A DNA stretch of 64,000 nt from NCBI RefSeq assembly GCF_013410875.1, contig NZ_JACCCU010000001.1, forward strand, positions 1,364,001 to 1,428,000, given 5' to 3'. The notes beneath the pieces are model-generated. The model worked only from the letters and a program-made list of their open reading frames with translations. It had not been told where the DNA came from and made no database searches. Source of the DNA: Tunturiibacter empetritectus (GTDB lineage: Bacteria; Acidobacteriota; Terriglobia; Terriglobales; Acidobacteriaceae). The first letter of the stretch is position 1. The number at the start of each line of letters is the position of its first letter. Position numbers and translations under genes: made by a program. Positions 29,187-40,378 of the stretch are shown here, in pieces.

Positions 29187-30701
29187 ATGATTGAGATGCC
29201 GATGATTGCAAAGGGCGTGGACGAGCTTTACTTGCTGCCGGGGATGACGAATCGACATGGTCTGGTTGCGGGGGCTACGGGCACGGGCAAGACGGTTACG
29301 CTGCAGGTGATGGCGGAGGCGTTGAGTTCGATTGGAGTACCGGTATTTGCGGCCGATGTGAAGGGAGACCTGTCGGGAATCTCGCAGGCGGGGAAGAGTT
29401 CGCCCAAGTTCGATGCGCGGGTTGCAGCAATGGGTCTGGGGGAGTGGAGCTTTGCAGGATGTCCTGTGGTCTTCTGGGATGTCTTTGGCAAGCAGGGGCA
29501 TCCTGTGAGAGCTACTGTCAGTGAGATGGGGCCGCTGCTACTCAGCAGGATTCTGAATCTGAACGATACGCAGACGGGCGTGCTGACTCTGGTCTTCAAG
29601 ATCGCCGATGACAGTGGATTGCTGCTGCTGGACATGAAAGATATGCAGGCGATGCTGCAGCATGTCGGCGAAGCTGCGAAGGAGTATCAGACGCAGTACG
29701 GAAATATCTCTGCGGCGAGCATCGGCGCGATTCAGCGCGGGTTGGTGGCGTTGGAGCAGCAGGGAGGAGATCTTTTCTTCGGGGAGCCGGCGTTAAATAT
29801 CGATGATTTGCTGCAGGTGGATTCGAGTGGCAAGGGCGTGGTGAATATTCTAGCGGCGGATCAATTGTTGCAGTCGCCACAACTGTATGCGACGTTTCTG
29901 CTTTGGCTGATGAGTGAGCTGTTTGAGAAGCTGCCGGAGGTTGGAGATCAGGAGAAGCCGAAGCTGGTGTTCTTCTTCGATGAGGCTCATCTTTTGTTCA
30001 ACGACCTTCCTTCGGTTTTGCAGAATCGCATTGAGCAGGTGGTGCGATTGATTCGGTCGAAGGGGGTTGGGGTGTTCTTTGTGACACAGAATCCTATCGA
30101 TGTACCGGATACGGTTCTTAGTCAGCTGGGGAATCGTGTACAGCATGCGTTGCGTGCGTTTTCGCCACGAGATCAGAAGGCGGTGAAGGCGGCGGCGCAG
30201 ACGTTTCGGGCGAATCCGAAGTTGAATGTGGAGGCCGTGATTACGGAGATGGGTGTAGGAGAGGCGCTGGTCTCGTTTCTGGACGAGAAGGGAATTCCCG
30301 GGATTGTGGAGCGCGCGATGATTATGCCTCCACATAGTCAGATCGGTCCGATTACTCCGGAACAGAGAGCGGCAATTATTAAGAATTCGGTGGTGGCGGG
30401 GGTGTATGAGACGGTGGTGGATCGGGAGTCGGCGTATGAGCGGCTGAAGGGGAAGGCTGTGGCTTCGGGTGGGGCGGCGGGTTCAGCAGGGTCTCCGGCG
30501 GGTTCGGGCTCGGGGTGGTTGGGGAGCCTGGAGGCGGCTGGGACTGCGTTGGGCGGGGTGCTGGGGCAGGGGAGTTCGCAGCGGGGGGATACGGTGCTGC
30601 AGGCTGCGGTGAAGAGCGCGGCGCGGACGATGGGGAGTACGGTAGGACGGCAGTTGATCCGTGGGGTGCTGGGATCGCTGCTGGGTGGGTCGAAGAGGTA
30701 G
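29187..30701 (+). CDS. HerA-like ATPase, DUF853 (YjgR) family
   Basis: A 504-residue P-loop ATPase of the FtsK-HerA class. Walker A is [10 protein letters not shown] (about 29-38), Walker B is [12 protein letters not shown] (about 258), with the downstream sensor [11 protein letters not shown] and arginine-finger-like [16 protein letters not shown]. The C-terminus is Gly/Ser-rich. Length matches E. coli YjgR (about 500). The biological role of the family is not settled; the fold suggests a hexameric DNA-translocating motor. It is not next to a NurA or SIR2 gene, so nothing argues for a defence role here. Confidence 0.92.
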
Positions 30702-32056: not shown

Positions 32057-32215
32057 CTCGTGCCTCCTTCTTTGGAAAGAGACGTTCGCAAGGGGTACGA
32101 GATGAGAGGCGGTTTGGATGGCCTGAAAGTTGTAGAGACGCTACATAAAGTTTGATGTAGGGCTGGTTGACCGTGGTCAGGCCATCTTGTCAGGTTTTGC
32201 CCTTCTCGTTTCGGG

Positions 32216-32587: not shown

Positions 32588-32779
32588 GGGTGTCTCCTTG
32601 TGGCGAGGAGTTTAGCACGCGGTTAGAGGTTTGGGATCTTCCGTTCGCGTGTGGCGTCAGTGCCCAAATCTCAGAAGCGAGGTATGGGCATTGGGCATAA
32701 CATTGTCGCGTGTGAACGGTCTCACGGTCAGGAATGACGGCCCAGGCAGGTGAAGCGACTTATTCAAGGAGGCTGTGCG

Positions 32780-33490
32780 ATGGCGAATCGAATGATTGGA
32801 ACGATAGTGTCTGGCGTGGTGTGTGGTGTGGCTCTACTCGGTGCGGCTGGTGTCGGCTGGGGGCAGGGAGCGAAGGCGCTGTATCCGGCGATGGCTCCGA
32901 TTGAGCAGTACCGCGTGGCTAGTGTGGCGGAGGAGGTTGCGCTGGCGCGCAGTGCGGCGAATGTGGCAGTGAGCGGTGATGCGGAGGTGATGGTGCTCGG
33001 CAGCCACGGCTACGAGACGGCGGCGAAAGGGAAGAACGGATTCGTCTGCCTGGTGGAGCGCTCGTGGGCTACCACCTTTGACGATCCACAGTTCTGGAAC
33101 CCGAAGCTGCGTGCGCCGCACTGCTTCAATGCGGCGGCTGCGCGGTCGGTGATGCCAGCGTATCTGAAGCGGACGGAGTTGGTGCTGTCCGGGATGCCGA
33201 AGGATCAGGTGGAGGCACGCATGAAGGAGGCGGTGGCGACGAAGGTCATTGGCGCGCCGGAGCAGGGGACGATGTGCTACATGATGTCGAAGCAGGGCAA
33301 TCTGAACGATCATGACGGCCATTGGCGTCCGCATCTGATGTTCTTCCTGCCGACTACGGATGCTGCGAGCTGGGGTGCGAACCTCGACGGGTCACAGGTC
33401 TTCGCTGCGCAGGGGAACCCTGAGCCGGTGACGATTTTTATGGTTCCGGTGACGGCGTGGTCGGATGGGACGGTGGGGGAGATGAAGTGA
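32780..33490 (+). CDS. Secreted hypothetical protein
   Basis: A 236-residue protein from the ATG at 32780, which has AAGGAGG at 32768-32774. A signal peptide (about 1-30, ending GVGWGQG) precedes a mature part with AMAPIEQYRVASVAEEVALA, the motif GKNGFVCLVERSWATTFDDP, HCFNAAAARSV and a C-terminal stretch GHWRPHLMFFLPTTDAASWG. The pattern of conserved-looking Trp, Cys and His recalls a secreted family common in Acidobacteria, but no function is known. It stands alone. Confidence 0.8.
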   Translation: MANRMIGTIVSGVVCGVALLGAAGVGWGQGAKALYPAMAPIEQYRVASVAEEVALARSAANVAVSGDAEVMVLGSHGYETAAKGKNGFVCLVERSWATTFDDPQFWNPKLRAPHCFNAAAARSVMPAYLKRTELVLSGMPKDQVEARMKEAVATKVIGAPEQGTMCYMMSKQGNLNDHDGHWRPHLMFFLPTTDAASWGANLDGSQVFAAQGNPEPVTIFMVPVTAWSDGTVGEMK

Positions 33491-33652
33491 TGCCTCTATT
33501 TGCGGCCTAGTGGATTTACGTTCCTACCCTTCGCAGAAGATCCTTATTTTTCGCATGAATTTGTGCCGGGCGGGTTGGGAGTAGTGCGGTTCGCGCCGCG
33601 CGCGAATGCCTACTCATGCGATGAGACTGCGTGAATAGGGCCCGCAATTCAT

Positions 33653-34258
33653 CTAAGTTGACGCTTCAAATCCTGGCAAAGTTGGTTCATCTGGATTGTC
33701 GAGATCCAGCGCCTCTAGAAGTTCTGCTTTGTCTTGGTATTCAAGCCACACAATAAATCCACGATCAACAATATTGAGTCGAAGACCCGTCTGATCATAA
33801 TCAAGCACAATTGCCTTAATATTTTTCTCGACCTGAAGGGAGGAACAGTACTGTAGTGCTTGTGTCAAATTACCGGGATTCAAAGCCTTGCCTGAGGGGT
33901 GGTGTTCTTGAAGGTGTTTCCGTAATTCTGCATACGTGAAGCCTGCCTGAAGTTTTTCAGACTTTGCCGTCAAGACCGGATGTAGAAGCCATCGATACAT
34001 CCTAAGCTGAGTGTCCTGAAAGCCACCTGCAAAAAGGTTCATGAAGGTGGTATACCGACCACTTTGTTGATCGACGATATTTTTTATCAGTGCTTCAACA
34101 TTAATTTCTTTGCCAACGACTCTTTGGCTTTCTGCTGTACTTGTCACGTTTGCTTCCAAGCAAGCTAGGCGGCAACCCTCTTGAACAACGTAGACACTGA
34201 ACTTAGAAAACTTAATGAGACTCGTTGCAAACGCTGGATCAAAAGTAACGTTGAGCAT
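33653..34258 (-). CDS. C-terminal part of split ATPase (winged-helix side)
   Basis: A 201-residue frame that continues, after a one-base shift, the ATPase frame at 34165-34986. It contains a lid-like helical section (FDPAFATSLIKFSKFSVYVV), a linker helix (VEALIKNIVDQQ) and a C-terminal part that looks like a winged helix (FTYAELRKHLQEHHPSG, LNPGNLTQALQYCSSLQVEK, IVDRGFIVWLEYQ). Base composition is far richer in A+T than either flank. Its own ATG at 34258 lies inside the A-run where the shift occurs and has no ribosome site, so it is more likely the tail of one 444-residue protein than a separate gene. Confidence 0.7.
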   Translation of the reverse strand: MLNVTFDPAFATSLIKFSKFSVYVVQEGCRLACLEANVTSTAESQRVVGKEINVEALIKNIVDQQSGRYTTFMNLFAGGFQDTQLRMYRWLLHPVLTAKSEKLQAGFTYAELRKHLQEHHPSGKALNPGNLTQALQYCSSLQVEKNIKAIVLDYDQTGLRLNIVDRGFIVWLEYQDKAELLEALDLDNPDEPTLPGFEAST

Positions 34259-34986
34259 TTTTGCGCCCAGCTAATCACTGAGCCAAGTTCTTCTTCGGTC
34301 CAGGTATCAGCATCAACAGATACGACCCTTCCCGTGAGGTCTCCGTTGTAGACAATCAGACGATCATTATCGAGCCAGACGCCAATGATAATAAAGCAGA
34401 CTTTTGAGGCCTCATGAAAGGCTTTTAGTGCAACAGAAAAGTCTATTTGTGTCGAAACAGGTAAGTAGTGAAAATCTTCAAGAACGATGAATTTTTGAAA
34501 GTTGGCAGCCTTCAGTGCGGCAATGATGTCATTAACATCACCAGGATCGAGTTCCAAATCGTGGACTTCCACTTCGCTCGTCTCAGTCGATCCTTTCTCT
34601 CCCCCCAATTCCGCGCTGATTCCCATGAAACCAGCTTTTAGGCCAGCGTTTATTTTGTTTGTTCCTTCTATGGTTTTCTTCTCGGACTGAACAACTTGAA
34701 ATCCTGCGCGTTTTAGTATGTTGGAGTGGAGTTCTTGGATATTCCACTTGTTGGAACATTGAACAAGAATGTAATCGTCGTCCTTTAGGCAATGTTTTCT
34801 AAGACACGTTTTGCCTTGCTTCGAACTTCCGAAAATGACGACATGTTTGTCGCGAGTCAACGTGCTGACGAACGAATCATCGACTTTTTTCCGCGTTACA
34901 TAGTTGAGGGGGACATCTCGAGTAACACCATAGACTTCGTCCGTGGTAAAGCTCTTCGTTTGAACCGAGTTGTGATCACCGAACAT
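34165..34986 (-). CDS. P-loop ATPase of unknown family, N-terminal part (frameshifted)
   Basis: A 273-residue frame. Residues 1-40 (YGVTRDVPLNYVTRKKVDDS) lead into an ATPase with Walker A VVIFGSSKQGKTCLRKH (about 49-65) and Walker B KFIVLEDFHYL (about 165-175). The genuine frame ends near residue 243, where the A5 run at 34258-34262 would need a sixth A to continue into the frame at 33653-34258; the last 30 residues (STLLLIQRLQ...) are read-through noise. ATPase plus winged helix recalls STAND or Orc-like proteins. It begins nine bases behind the ffh stop and is A+T-rich, hence probably acquired. I do not know a function. Confidence 0.75.
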   Translation of the reverse strand: MFGDHNSVQTKSFTTDEVYGVTRDVPLNYVTRKKVDDSFVSTLTRDKHVVIFGSSKQGKTCLRKHCLKDDDYILVQCSNKWNIQELHSNILKRAGFQVVQSEKKTIEGTNKINAGLKAGFMGISAELGGEKGSTETSEVEVHDLELDPGDVNDIIAALKAANFQKFIVLEDFHYLPVSTQIDFSVALKAFHEASKVCFIIIGVWLDNDRLIVYNGDLTGRVVSVDADTWTEEELGSVISWAQKCSTLLLIQRLQRVSLSFLSSVSTLFKRVAA

Positions 34987-34995
34987 AAATTGATA

Positions 34996-36390
34996 TTACC
35001 TGCCGAATTTTTGTTTGCCTTGCATTTGGCTCATCATGCGTTGTTGGGCTTTGATGCCGCCGCCACCGCCGAGTGACTTGAACATCTTGCGCATCTGGGC
35101 GTACTGGCGGAGGAGGTTGTTTACGTCTTGTACGGATGTGCCTGAGCCCTTGGCGATGCGCTTGCGGCGGTTGCCGTTGATGATCTCGTGGTCGAGGCGC
35201 TCTTTGTTGGTCATCGAATTAATGATGGATTCGACGCGGGTGAACTGGCCTTCGTCTACGTTTTCGACGGCCTGCTGCATGCCCGCGAAGGGGCCGACGG
35301 AGGGGAGCATCTTGAGGATGGACTTCATGGAGCCCATCTTTTTGATCTGACGGAGCTGGTCGCGGAAGTCGTCGAGGGTGAAGCCGTCGCCGGAGAGGGC
35401 TTTTTTGGCGAACTGCTCGGCTTTGCCGCGGTCGAGGGTGGATTCGGCGCGCTCGAGGAGGGTGGCGATGTCGCCGTGACCCATGATGCGGGAGACAATG
35501 CGGTCGGGGTGGAAGGGCTCGAAGGCGTCGGGCTTTTCGCCGGTGCCGAGGAACTTGATGGGCGCGCCGGTGACGTGGCGGATGGAGAGGGCAGCGCCGC
35601 CTCGGGCGTCACCGTCCATCTTGGTGAGGATGGCGCCGGTGATGGTGAGGAGATCGTTGAAGGCCTTGGCGGAGTTGACGGCGTCCTGGCCGGTCATGGC
35701 GTCGGCGACGAAGAGGATCTCGGAGGGCGAGAGGAGCTTTTTGAGCTGCGCCATCTCGTCCATGAGGGAGGCGTCGATCTGGTTGCGGCCGGCGGTGTCG
35801 ACGATGAGCATGTCGCAGCCGAAGTTGGCGGCGTCGCGTTTGGCCTCTTTGGCGAGGCGGAGGACGGCGTCGGTGCCGGGCTTTGCGATGTCGGAGTCGG
35901 TGAGTTTGCCCTCGTAAAGTTGGGCGGAGATGGAGCGGGCTACGATGGCGAGTTGCTCGCGGGCGGCGGGACGGTAGACGTCGACCGAGACGAGCATGGG
36001 GCGGTGGCCGGCTTTTTTTAGCCACTGGGCCAGCTTTCCGGAGGTTGTGGTTTTACCTGAGCCTTGCAGGCCGGCCATGAGGATGACGCTCGGCGGCTGG
36101 GAGGCTTTCTGGAAGCGGGCGGTGTCGCGGCCCAGGAGGTTGACTAGCTCGTCGTGGACGATTTTTACGATCTGCTCGGAGGGCGAGAGGGCGGTGGCGA
36201 CCTTTTCGCCGATGGCGCGGGTGCGGATGTGCTCGACGAGCTCATTGACGACGGTGAGGTTGACGTCGGACTCGAGGAGGGCGAGGCGGATCTCGCGGAT
36301 GGCGTCGGAGATGTTCTCGTCGGAGATGGTGCCCTGGCCGCGGAGGGTCTTGAAGGAACGCTGGAGTTTGTCGCTTAGGTTTTCAAACAT
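34996..36390 (-). CDS. ffh: Signal recognition particle GTPase Ffh
   Basis: A 464-residue protein with the N domain (about 1-90), the G domain (about 95-295: GLQGSGKTTTSGKL, DTAGR, TKMDGDARGGAAL) and the Met-rich M domain (about 320-460: MGSMKSILKMLPSVG, RRKRIAKGSGTSVQDVN, MMSQMQGKQKFGR). With 4.5S RNA it delivers nascent membrane proteins to the translocase. Length and order are normal. In most bacteria ffh is followed by rpsP, rimM and trmD; here an A+T-rich ATPase gene follows instead. Confidence 0.97.
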   Translation of the reverse strand: MFENLSDKLQRSFKTLRGQGTISDENISDAIREIRLALLESDVNLTVVNELVEHIRTRAIGEKVATALSPSEQIVKIVHDELVNLLGRDTARFQKASQPPSVILMAGLQGSGKTTTSGKLAQWLKKAGHRPMLVSVDVYRPAAREQLAIVARSISAQLYEGKLTDSDIAKPGTDAVLRLAKEAKRDAANFGCDMLIVDTAGRNQIDASLMDEMAQLKKLLSPSEILFVADAMTGQDAVNSAKAFNDLLTITGAILTKMDGDARGGAALSIRHVTGAPIKFLGTGEKPDAFEPFHPDRIVSRIMGHGDIATLLERAESTLDRGKAEQFAKKALSGDGFTLDDFRDQLRQIKKMGSMKSILKMLPSVGPFAGMQQAVENVDEGQFTRVESIINSMTNKERLDHEIINGNRRKRIAKGSGTSVQDVNNLLRQYAQMRKMFKSLGGGGGIKAQQRMMSQMQGKQKFGR

Positions 36391-36434
36391 GACTGCTACA
36401 AGTTTACAGGGAATGGCGGCGATGGCCTACCGGC

Positions 36435-36510
36435 CGGGTCCGCTGCGCGCGGTGCGGTCACTTCGTGACTTGTATACCCCTTCGGCTAGTGCTTCCGATG
36501 GTCGCGATAC
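36435..36510 (+). repeat. Solo copy of the GGTCACTTCGTGAC repeat
   Basis: GGGTCCGCTGCGCGCGGT, then GCGGTCACTTCGTGACTTGT and ATACCCCTTCGGCTAGTGCT. It matches the left half of the inverted-repeat element at 37882-38078. It lies between ffh and the POTRA-type gene. Confidence 0.7.
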
Positions 36511-37823: not shown

Positions 37824-37881
37824 TTGAATGGAAGATACCCCATGCCGCGATGGGAGAGAAGAGACTTTTTTAGGGACAAGT

Positions 37882-38078
37882 GCGTCCTGCCAGCGGGCCC
37901 ACTACGCGTGGGGCGGTCACTTCGTGACTTGTTTACCGCTTCGCTTGGTGCTCCCGTTGTTCGCAGGTTGAAGTCCGTGCCGACCAACGGGAGGAGCTAT
38001 GCTTTCTCGTTCGCAAAGACGGGTATGCGCGTCACGAAGTGACCGCTCTCCGCGCAGGAGGCCCGTCCGGCAGGACGC
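37882..38078. repeat. 197-bp inverted-repeat element (MITE-like)
   Basis: The ends are GCGTCCTGCC (37882-37891) and its exact complement GGCAGGACGC (38069-38078). Further in, GCGGTCACTTCGTGAC (37913-37928) faces GTCACGAAGTGACCGC (38031-38046), and CTCCCGTTG (37951-37959) faces CAACGGGAG (37985-37993). No reading frame of its own. The whole gap of 351 bases between the POTRA gene and xerD is mostly this element. Confidence 0.8.
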
Positions 38079-38174: not shown

Positions 38175-39128
38175 ATGCACGAGATTGGGCAGGCTGGAGG
38201 GAACGCGCGGACAGTGCGGGAGTTTGTGGCGTATCTGCGGGTGGAGAAAGGGCTTCGACCGGCCAGTTGTGAGGCATATCAAAGGGATCTGGAGCAGTTT
38301 GCGGAGCATGTTGAGGGGCGCGACGGGTTGCTGGTGGGGGCGACCCAGGCGGATGTGAGCGGGTTTATGGAGGGGCTGCGTGGGCACGCGGTGGAGTCGA
38401 GGTCGATTGCGCGGAAGCTGAGCTGCCTGCGTGGGTTCTATCGCTGGCTGCTGATGGATAAACGGATTACTCATGATCCGACAGTGAATGTGGAGACTCC
38501 TGCGAGCTGGAAGGTGCTGCCGAAGTCGCTGGCCGAGGGCGAGGTGGCGGAGATGCTGGAGCGGACCGGAGTTGCTGCCCGGAGTGACGGTGCGGATGGG
38601 CTGGCGCTGCGGGATCATGCGATCTTGGAGCTGCTGTATGCGGGCGGGCTGAGGGTGGGGGAGATATGCGCACTGCGGGTGGAGGATGTGCATCTGGACC
38701 AGGCGCGGGCGCAGGTGAGGGGCAAAGGCGATAAGGAGAGGATTGTGCCGCTGGGGCGGTCGGCGGTGGAGGCTTTGGAGAGGTATCTGGTGGTGGGGAG
38801 GCCGGGGTTGGTGAGGAGCGGGCTGGAGCGGGGAGGCCATGCGGTGCAGAGGGCGCTGTTTCTTAGTGTGCGGGGAAATGCGCTGACGCGGCAGTGGGTT
38901 TGGGAGATGGTGCGGTCGGCTTCGGGGACGGGTAAGGCTAGTCCGCATATGCTGAGGCATAGCTGCGCTACGCACATGGTGGAGCATGGTGCGGATTTGA
39001 GGAGTGTGCAGACTTTGCTGGGGCATGCGGATATTGCTACGACGCAGGTTTATACACATGTGGCGTTGGGGCATTTGAAGAAGGTGCATCGGGAGCATCA
39101 TCCGCGGGGGAAAAGGCGGGTGGTTTAA
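38175..39128 (+). CDS. xerD: Tyrosine recombinase XerD-like
   Basis: A 317-residue recombinase. The N-terminal SAM-like core-binding domain (about 14-100: RTVREFVAYLRVEKGLRPAS) is followed by the catalytic domain with Arg in LLYAGGLRVGEICAL, Lys in GKGDKERIVP, the H-L-x-x-H-x-x-A-T-x-M box MLRHSCATHMVEHGADLRSV, LGHADIATTQVYTHV with the nucleophile Tyr. These are the R-K-H-R-H-Y residues of the family. XerC and XerD resolve chromosome dimers at dif. It is followed by a second Xer gene. No dif-like site was recognised nearby. Confidence 0.9.
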   Translation: MHEIGQAGGNARTVREFVAYLRVEKGLRPASCEAYQRDLEQFAEHVEGRDGLLVGATQADVSGFMEGLRGHAVESRSIARKLSCLRGFYRWLLMDKRITHDPTVNVETPASWKVLPKSLAEGEVAEMLERTGVAARSDGADGLALRDHAILELLYAGGLRVGEICALRVEDVHLDQARAQVRGKGDKERIVPLGRSAVEALERYLVVGRPGLVRSGLERGGHAVQRALFLSVRGNALTRQWVWEMVRSASGTGKASPHMLRHSCATHMVEHGADLRSVQTLLGHADIATTQVYTHVALGHLKKVHREHHPRGKRRVV

Positions 39129-39328: not shown

Positions 39329-40378
39329 ATGCGGGATAAGGCTGGCGGGATTAACGGATTGGCCGAAGGGTTTCTGGCGATGCTCGCGAATGAGCGAGGC
39401 GCGTCGGAGCATACGGTGCGGGCTTATGCGCGCGAGGTGCGGAGCTTTGCGGCTTATCTGAATGAGACTTTGGGGAAGGATGCGAAGGTGAGTGCGGTGG
39501 AGCATCTGCATATTCGCGGTTACCTGGGGGCGCTGTATGAACGGGGGCTGACCAAGGCGAGTGCGGCGCGGGCGCTGGCGGCGGTGAGGAGCTGGTTCAA
39601 ATGGCTGGCGAAGGAGGGGCATGTGGCGCAGAATCCGGCGCTGCTGGTGAGTACGCCGAAGTTGCCGAAGCATCTGCCGCGGGTGCCGAGTATGGAAGAG
39701 GTGAATCGAGTTTTGAATTCGCTGGATGGTTCGACTGAGAAGAGGGCTGGCGGAGCGGACGGTGTAGCCTCCCACCCTTCGCAAAGTACGCGAAGGATGG
39801 GGCACCCGGACGGTGGTGGCGATGCGGAGGAGGGAGATGCTTCGGCGTGGCCTGAGCGGGATCGGGTGATCTTCGAGTTGTTGTATGGGTGCGGGATTCG
39901 TAACTCGGAGCTGGTGGGTTTAAATATGGGCAGTGTGAAGTGGCGCGATGATGCGGTGCTGGTGCGCGGCAAGGGGCGGAAGGAGCGACTGGTGCCGCTG
40001 GGGGATGAGGCTGCGGTGGCGTTGAGGGCGTATCTGCCGCTGCGCGAGGCGAAGCTGGTGGCGGCGGGCAAGGGCACGCTGGTGCATGAGGGGCCGTTGA
40101 TGATGAATCTGCGGATGCGTGGCGATTGCAGGCTGACGACGCGGAGTGTGGGGCGGATTGTGAAGGCGATTGCGCTGAGCCGGGGGCTGGCGGCGGATGT
40201 GCATCCGCATACGCTGCGGCACGCGTTCGGCACGCACATGCTGGAGGAGGGTGCGGATCTGCGGGCGATCCAGGAGATGCTGGGGCATGAGCGGCTGTCG
40301 ACGACGCAGAGGTATACGCAGTTGACGGTGGGTCAGGTGCAGAAGGTGTATGACGAGACGCATCCTCGGGCTAAGTGA
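39329..40378 (+). CDS. xerC: Tyrosine recombinase XerC-like, with inserted repeat
   Basis: A 349-residue recombinase with the same layout as its neighbour: core-binding domain ([40 protein letters not shown]), catalytic Arg in [15 protein letters not shown], Lys in [32 protein letters not shown] and [15 protein letters not shown] with Tyr. It is about 40 residues longer than usual because of an insert near residues 137-172, of which [13 protein letters not shown] is encoded by a palindromic intergenic repeat (39771-39801). The insert lies in the linker before the catalytic Arg, so activity may survive. AGAGG is four bases ahead of the ATG. Confidence 0.9.
39771..39801 (+). repeat. Palindromic repeat inserted in frame within xerC
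   Basis: CCCACCCTTCGC (39771-39782) pairs with GCGAAGGATGGG (39790-39801) around a seven-base loop, followed by GCACCCGGA. This CCCA-CCTTCGC hairpin with GGGGCACCC is of intergenic type; a related fragment GTGGGGCACCCGC is at 54446-54458. Confidence 0.7.

Follow-up and report, generated by a model that had tools for sequence, protein, structure and literature searches.

Directly behind ffh in Tunturiibacter empetritectus lies a 1.33 kb segment of about 44% G+C that carries two overlapping open reading frames (ORFs), which raises the question of what this cassette encodes and how it came to stand there. The window analysed is a stretch of 64,000 nt (contig NZ_JACCCU010000001.1, positions 1,364,001 to 1,428,000 of the forward strand), and coordinates are given within it. 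The cassette is probably an acquired, frame-broken gene of the antiviral candidate family PDC-S59, located in a slot anchored on ffh in which cargo genes are swapped within the genus. What is unusual here is less the gene than its place, which was not visible in the original prediction, which was made from the window sequence alone.

Identity of the gene behind ffh

The cassette had been placed correctly (33653-34986), and the strand can now be added, as both frames are on the minus strand, in the same direction as ffh. The first frame (34165..34986, 273 aa) matches positions 4-229 (E 2.4e-46) of the 428 positions of the PADLOC model PDC-S59, and the second (33653..34258, 201 aa) matches positions 231-404 (E 8.5e-19). 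PDC-S59 (PDLC05049) is a candidate defence family in PADLOC-DB. Such putative defence candidates (PDCs) come from 'guilt by embedding' and most are without experimental validation (PMC12988326). Two intact relatives match the model in a single chain (3-399 and 4-402), and the two window halves together likewise cover nearly the whole model, the difference being the frame break that splits the window copy. By these profile matches the window gene is a frame-broken member of a catalogued family and not the undescribed gene that had been proposed.

The first frame represents the N-terminal P-loop ATPase half and contains both the Walker A motif GSSKQGKT and the Walker B-like stretch FIVLEDFHY, and the second represents the C-terminal helical and winged-helix half. 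A structure model of a full-length homologue has a P-loop ATPase with Walker A and B, a helical part and a winged helix, which bears out the predicted domain order and agrees with the STAND/Orc-like fold suggested for it. The overall fold resembles those of the archaeal Walker ATPases 2qen (P. abyssi) and 2fna (SSO1545), Orc1/Cdc6 and STAND proteins, with just 12-13% identity in the best alignments, and a PDB sequence search returned no solved relative at E up to 1. PDC-S59 differs from these proteins in that no effector domain or sensor repeats are recognisable in its chain.

The only Pfam match of the window gene, to AAA_22, is below threshold; among four homologues, nSTAND3 reaches E 0.03 in one, under the cut-off, and AAA_22 also stays under its cut-off. 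A match to the TnsC/TniB transposition ATPases over the curated cut-off was not obtained: TniB is absent from the profile matches of the window gene, and the best of the four homologues scores 16.8 bits against a curated cut-off of 22.4. A distant relative, L014, is the only protein to pass TniB (23.7 bits), and it also passes nSTAND1 (36.3 bits, cut-off 27.1). A further distant relative (L013, 751-2391, in genus genome G017) has a weakly related AAA+ domain (PDC-S59 match, E 1.2e-9) and a C-terminal TIR domain (PF13676, E 1.3e-8) that is missing from the PDC-S59 proteins found here.

Distribution of PDC-S59 relatives

The PDC-S59 model matches in 3 of 150 related genomes, namely its own and two from the genus in which only distant relatives of the family are present. 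At the protein level, 5 of the 396 phylum genomes searched have a match (its own, the same-species genome and three distant ones). On these counts the gene is patchy in spread and is not a housekeeping gene kept by all relatives. The earlier view of a foreign single-gene module, of candidate-defence type, behind a housekeeping gene is supported.

Ten related loci were found elsewhere, on genome contigs of Ferrimonas, Leucothrix, Desulfovibrio, Komarekiella, Aeromonas and five metagenome-assembled genomes (MAGs), with the best segment 51-68% identical. Seven contain one full-length frame of 420-437 residues, and a viral contig and three plasmids supply four more full-length relatives, giving 11 in all. 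The Leucothrix homologue (L005, 7992-9140) stops early at 383 residues and is perhaps another decayed copy; an AAA_21 ATPase gene adjoins it. The homologue in L011 is truncated by the contig edge. The one in a Mariprofundaceae MAG (L010) lacks the N-terminus and has an in-frame stop within 60 bases of the contig edge, and is by its sequence broken or misassembled. Nine of the ten homologues are lower in G+C than the remainder of their locus, the difference being 9 to 28 points.

A conserved partner gene was sought beside the homologues and none is common to the ORF lists of the 10 loci, profiles having been run on 6 of the 80 ORFs; these six include an AAA_21 ATPase and a serine recombinase, the latter beside the L224 homologue. 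A phage or plasmid as the present carrier was likewise rejected. No relative was found in phage records, one viral contig holds a relative at 60% identity, and of seven plasmid records with relatives six are below 60% and one is at 60.4%.

The frame break

In the alignment with full-length homologues, homology of the first frame ends one column before the first Met of the second, and the two frames are, as judged from sequence, halves of one chain. They join where the original prediction had joined them, at an A5 run (34258-34262; T on the plus strand) in the frame-break site (34256..34262, minus strand), which leads into the ATG of the second frame. The halves are consecutive both on the PDC-S59 model and in the alignment. 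The last ~30 residues of the first frame are out-of-frame sequence with no homology to the relatives, and the overlap between the two frames is 94 bases long.

Both the A5 run and the split recur in a second strain of the species (G237), which makes a sequencing error at the run unlikely. The proposed one-base break is supported. Over 10 kb the window and G237 show 136 differences, 131 of them in two tracts and 5 elsewhere. Those in the cassette are two substitutions, both residue-changing (E170D, which lies in the Walker B stretch, in the first frame, and A149P in the second), and are too few to measure selection.

Expression by slippage had also been suggested. Programmed −1 frameshifting at the A5 run, which would join the frames and leave the gene functional as it is, fits a second frame that is open throughout and starts exactly where the homology of the first ends, and a run that is kept in both strains. 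However, the run is short, the RNA at the break folds no better than shuffled sequences (z +1.04; 172 of 200 shuffles at least as stable, with pseudoknots outside the test), none of the 11 full-length homologues is split at the site, and both strain differences alter residues, one in Walker B. Slippage is thus improbable.

The chance that two polypeptides are made and reassemble into a working protein is rated slightly lower still. The ATG of the second frame at the join, between the ATPase core and the C-terminal half, would suit such an arrangement, but by eye no good ribosome-binding site precedes it, the frames overlap, the first half ends in unrelated residues and no full-length relative is split in this way. 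A fixed frame break in a gene that is inactive or partly working is the simplest reading.

A variable slot downstream of ffh

The slot (33538..34995, no strand) extends from the ffh stop to the point where relative G014 is alignable again, and in G014 it contains Shedu. Its left anchor is ffh (34996..36390, minus strand, 464 aa). The right-hand neighbour of the cassette is a converging gene (32750..33490, plus strand, 246 aa), the DNA of which is alignable in G014, G002, G047 and G054. Between ffh and this same gene, G002 has a retron, G047 an acyltransferase gene and G054 a DUF4236/DnaJ gene. One pair of flanking genes thus encloses PDC-S59 in the own genome (G000), Shedu in G014 and a retron in G002, the pattern by which a defence-island hotspot is recognised. 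In eight close relatives matching runs through ffh and is lost at about its stop codon (34991-35003). It resumes at 33492-33538 in four of the eight, at 32121 in one and never in another, and the remaining two match only in a repeat at 33586-33641 and then from 32.2-32.6 kb.

Sixty genus genomes were sampled, 58 of which have an ffh match. Loci were fetched from 40 of the 58 genomes other than the own and the same-species one, the 18 omitted being chiefly short-contig drafts or having partial ffh, and with the own genome the slot set comprises 41. Over the first 60 bases past the ffh stop, no 14-mer is common to the two members of any of the 820 genome pairs, and identity in register is at most 45%. 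To count as occupied, a slot had to have an ORF of 85 codons or more, with G+C <0.537 and present in no more than two genomes, whose start lies within 1 kb, ORFs and starts being called mechanically. This applies to 29 of the 41 genomes, with 28 kinds of first cargo gene, as DUF4238 alone occurs twice. Occupied slots have a median G+C of 0.483 in their first kilobase and of 0.582 beyond it. Of the 29 first cargo genes, 24 point in the direction of ffh (binomial p 0.0005) and 14 start within 60 bases of the ffh stop.

Comparison with other conserved genes bears on whether the slot is ordinary, as it would be if turnover of downstream DNA were common to all conserved genes of the genus. When the same-species strain is left out everywhere and sharing is measured over the nearest 700 bases, 23 of 28 loci downstream of ffh share <10% of that sequence with any other genome. 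The exceptions are G029 and G050 (both with DUF4238), G040, G001 and G024. Some recA and alaS loci are variable too, both downstream (3/28 and 3/25) and upstream (2/29 and 3/25). Against this, the figure is 0/29 upstream of ffh and 0/29 behind lepA, and 6/82 for the three downstream controls together (Fisher p 1e-13). G+C below 0.52 is seen in 18 of 28 loci behind ffh and in none upstream of it, compared with one behind recA, none behind lepA and three behind alaS (4/82; Fisher p 3e-10). An ordinary slot is accordingly a poor prospect.

In the window itself, G+C in 500-base windows is 0.43-0.45 across 33.75-35.0 kb; ffh is at 0.59-0.67 and the adjoining kilobase on the other side of the cassette at 0.56-0.63. 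The earlier statement that the cassette is richer in A+T than both flanks holds against ffh and this kilobase; further away, at 31.25-32.5 kb, G+C is 0.50-0.56, and the flanking DNA is therefore not uniformly G+C-rich. The ATG of the first frame follows the ffh stop codon after nine bases, and no terminator-like site is found between ffh and this frame on the minus strand. Three such sites are inside the cassette, and the minus strand has seven in all against 4.3 expected. What had been described as a gene-free gap past the cassette is merely ~160 bases long, after which the converging gene follows. The expectation of rpsP and rimM behind ffh proved a poor yardstick, as a rough rpsP motif is found in none of the 41 genus genomes within 5 kb behind ffh, and anywhere in only 3 of 30 ffh loci of other genera.

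Gene content of the slot

Cargo in the slot set was represented by 41 listed low-G+C ORFs, of which 38 were scanned with PADLOC and 35 with Pfam. At E<=1e-10, PADLOC matches cargo in 8 of the 40 other genomes. G014 has Shedu SduA (E 2.3e-154) and G002 a type II-A retron (NDT 7.2e-51, RT 4.5e-96), both of kinds that act against phage. The others are PDC-M02A/B in G021 (1.8e-66 and 6e-112), PDC-S42 in G057 (3e-15), a kinase like mad6 and PD-T4-6 in G033 (6.1e-32), an OLD-like ATPase in G026 (7.6e-20), a PD-T7-4-like protein with DUF4145 in G045 (5.3e-12) and, 1.6 kb behind ffh, an Mrr-type nuclease like PDC-M58A in G040 (7.6e-13). The DUF4238 protein of G050 has a weak match (1.4e-4). Control ORFs behind recA, lepA and alaS give 1 match in 83 at E<=1e-10 (mad2, 2.7e-19).

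Pfam identifies an SDH protease, DUF4236 with DnaJ, an acyltransferase, a thioredoxin-like protein and a methyltransferase among the other cargo, and DUF3800 just below the cut-off. The cargo of G034 (L074, 550-1837) is in pieces, with Schlafen AlbA_2 and RecG-C-like domains on separate ORFs.

Proposed route of cargo exchange

Displaced ffh 3′ ends are present downstream in 2 of the 40 genomes, one in G047 (nhmmer E 3.9e-14) and two in G040 (4.9e-12 and 4.3e-11). The G040 copies extend to the stop codon. Cargo ORFs stand between and behind them and only a doubtful ORF precedes the first, an arrangement to be expected if later arrivals had brought an ffh end of their own and moved earlier sets downstream. 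For the G040 ends an origin in another species was considered but not borne out, the best match being the ffh of G040 itself. The displaced copies start at different points, ~72, 82 and 103 bases before the stop.

One of the two tracts that separate the window from G237 lies in ffh (35479-36244, minus strand, 72 differences). Among 16 relatives its best match is G025 for both strains, at 94.9% for the window and 91.4% for G237, and the tract would therefore fit a segment imported in G237. The second tract (29583-29994, 59 differences) also fits an imported segment. The ffh tract and the differing starts of the displaced copies favour homologous recombination anchored in ffh as the likely route of cargo.

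The same data bear on a site-specific recombinase, supplied in trans, that would use a site in the ffh 3′ end, as in integration at tRNA genes or the ends of protein genes. In 41 genomes alike the junction falls at the ffh stop, and the ffh 3′ end is duplicated downstream twice in G040 and once in G047, both as such a recombinase would produce. However, the copies do not begin at one point, no integrase was matched in the cargo ORFs scanned, and the long ffh tract that fits import points to homologous recombination. A recombinase in trans is possible but on balance unlikely, and a site-specific integrative element was rejected on the absence of an integrase match in those ORFs and the varying starts of the duplicated ends. 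The only ORFs of a mobile kind are IS200-like (cluster c14; L078, L080, L081 and L101), located behind cargo in four genomes; one was scanned and confirmed as a transposase, and we take them to be of the REP-associated type.

At the right end of the cassette lies a REP-like intergenic repeat (33586..33641, minus strand), copies of which stand just behind a cargo ORF in G025 and G032. It was rejected as a cassette-specific site, as it has genome-wide copies (15 matches at E <0.002 in the own genome, itself included), which also argues against attC of an integron cassette.

Further repeated intergenic elements with copies in relatives are found at 36426-36505 and 37881-37964. Close upstream of ffh are two tandem tyrosine-recombinase-like genes (38175-39128 and 39329-40378), presumably XerC/XerD.

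Interpretation

The gene family is already catalogued, and the slot resembles known defence hotspots in a differing form; no description of it was found among the papers listed in an open-access library. E. coli defence hotspots between core genes are described as holding mobile elements, mostly with integrases, and as being empty in most genomes, with a median occupancy of 8% (PMC10121019). The ffh slot is like these in its fixed place between core genes and in carrying defence cargo that varies between strains; it differs from the hotspots described there in having one or a few small genes, no matched integrase and occupancy of 29/41, by a looser definition.

Integrative elements such as phage 21 and e14 at icd replace the 3′ end of their target gene. 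The duplication of the target 3′ end beyond the insert in G040 and G047 is a likeness to this type. The ffh cassettes differ in being of single-gene size and in having no matched integrase.

The slot looks like a small defence-rich hotspot anchored on ffh, in which small cargo genes of high A+T content, a fair share of which are of defence type, would be swapped at the ffh 3′ end. New cargo would be joined at the ffh stop codon through recombination anchored in ffh, and some would bring its own ffh 3′ end and push the old end downstream. As the cargo is mostly co-oriented with ffh and often starts a few tens of bases past its stop, it probably lives on read-through from ffh. The PDC-S59 gene would have been acquired horizontally, as a single gene and antiviral candidate, and a one-base change would have broken its frame before the two sequenced strains of the species separated. 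The window copy is most likely inactive, or yields two half proteins. For intact relatives an ATP-driven switch is the likeliest mode of action, in which the STAND/Orc-like P-loop domain would bind ATP, the winged helix would contact DNA or close the switch, and the sensing of infection would drive assembly.

Several observations weigh against this interpretation and keep it at probable. PDC-S59 is not named in any paper found in the open-access library, and its antiviral function is that of a candidate only. No stop interrupts the 201 codons of the second frame, which leaves room for a functional split. Twelve of the 41 genomes are without cargo as defined, 11 of the 29 occupied slots are without a clear family match in the ORFs scanned, and the acyltransferase, thioredoxin-like and methyltransferase genes are not obviously for defence. 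Of the eight PADLOC matches, the kinase and the OLD-like ATPase belong to broad families, and that of G040 lies 1.6 kb from ffh. Only three control genes were used, the control ORFs were chosen as the longest of each flank and probably include some that are not genes, and at E<=1e-3 they give up to 29 matches, mostly JetC and DndD, such that the contrast between cargo and controls rests on the strict cut. Displaced ffh ends in 2/40 genomes mean that the route need not be general. In other genera of the family only 1 of 30 ffh loci has downstream G+C <0.52; a hotspot across the whole family was therefore rejected, and the slot appears particular to this genus.

A more specific proposal, tentative and rather doubtful at present, is that the ffh 3′ end serves as a cassette port. 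Promoterless cargo units with a replacement ffh 3′ end would dock on ffh, be expressed by coupling and push the earlier end and its cargo downstream, a form of single-slot immune-gene swapping without a recombinase of its own. The window gene is a plain example of cargo decay. If the slot is as it seems, it would show that single immune genes can be swapped and expressed without a surrounding mobile element, by hitching to an essential gene, and would provide a single address at which candidate defence genes may be sought in this genus; cargo sets are present in 29 of the 41 genomes, and for 11 of these sets no clear family match was obtained in the ORFs scanned.
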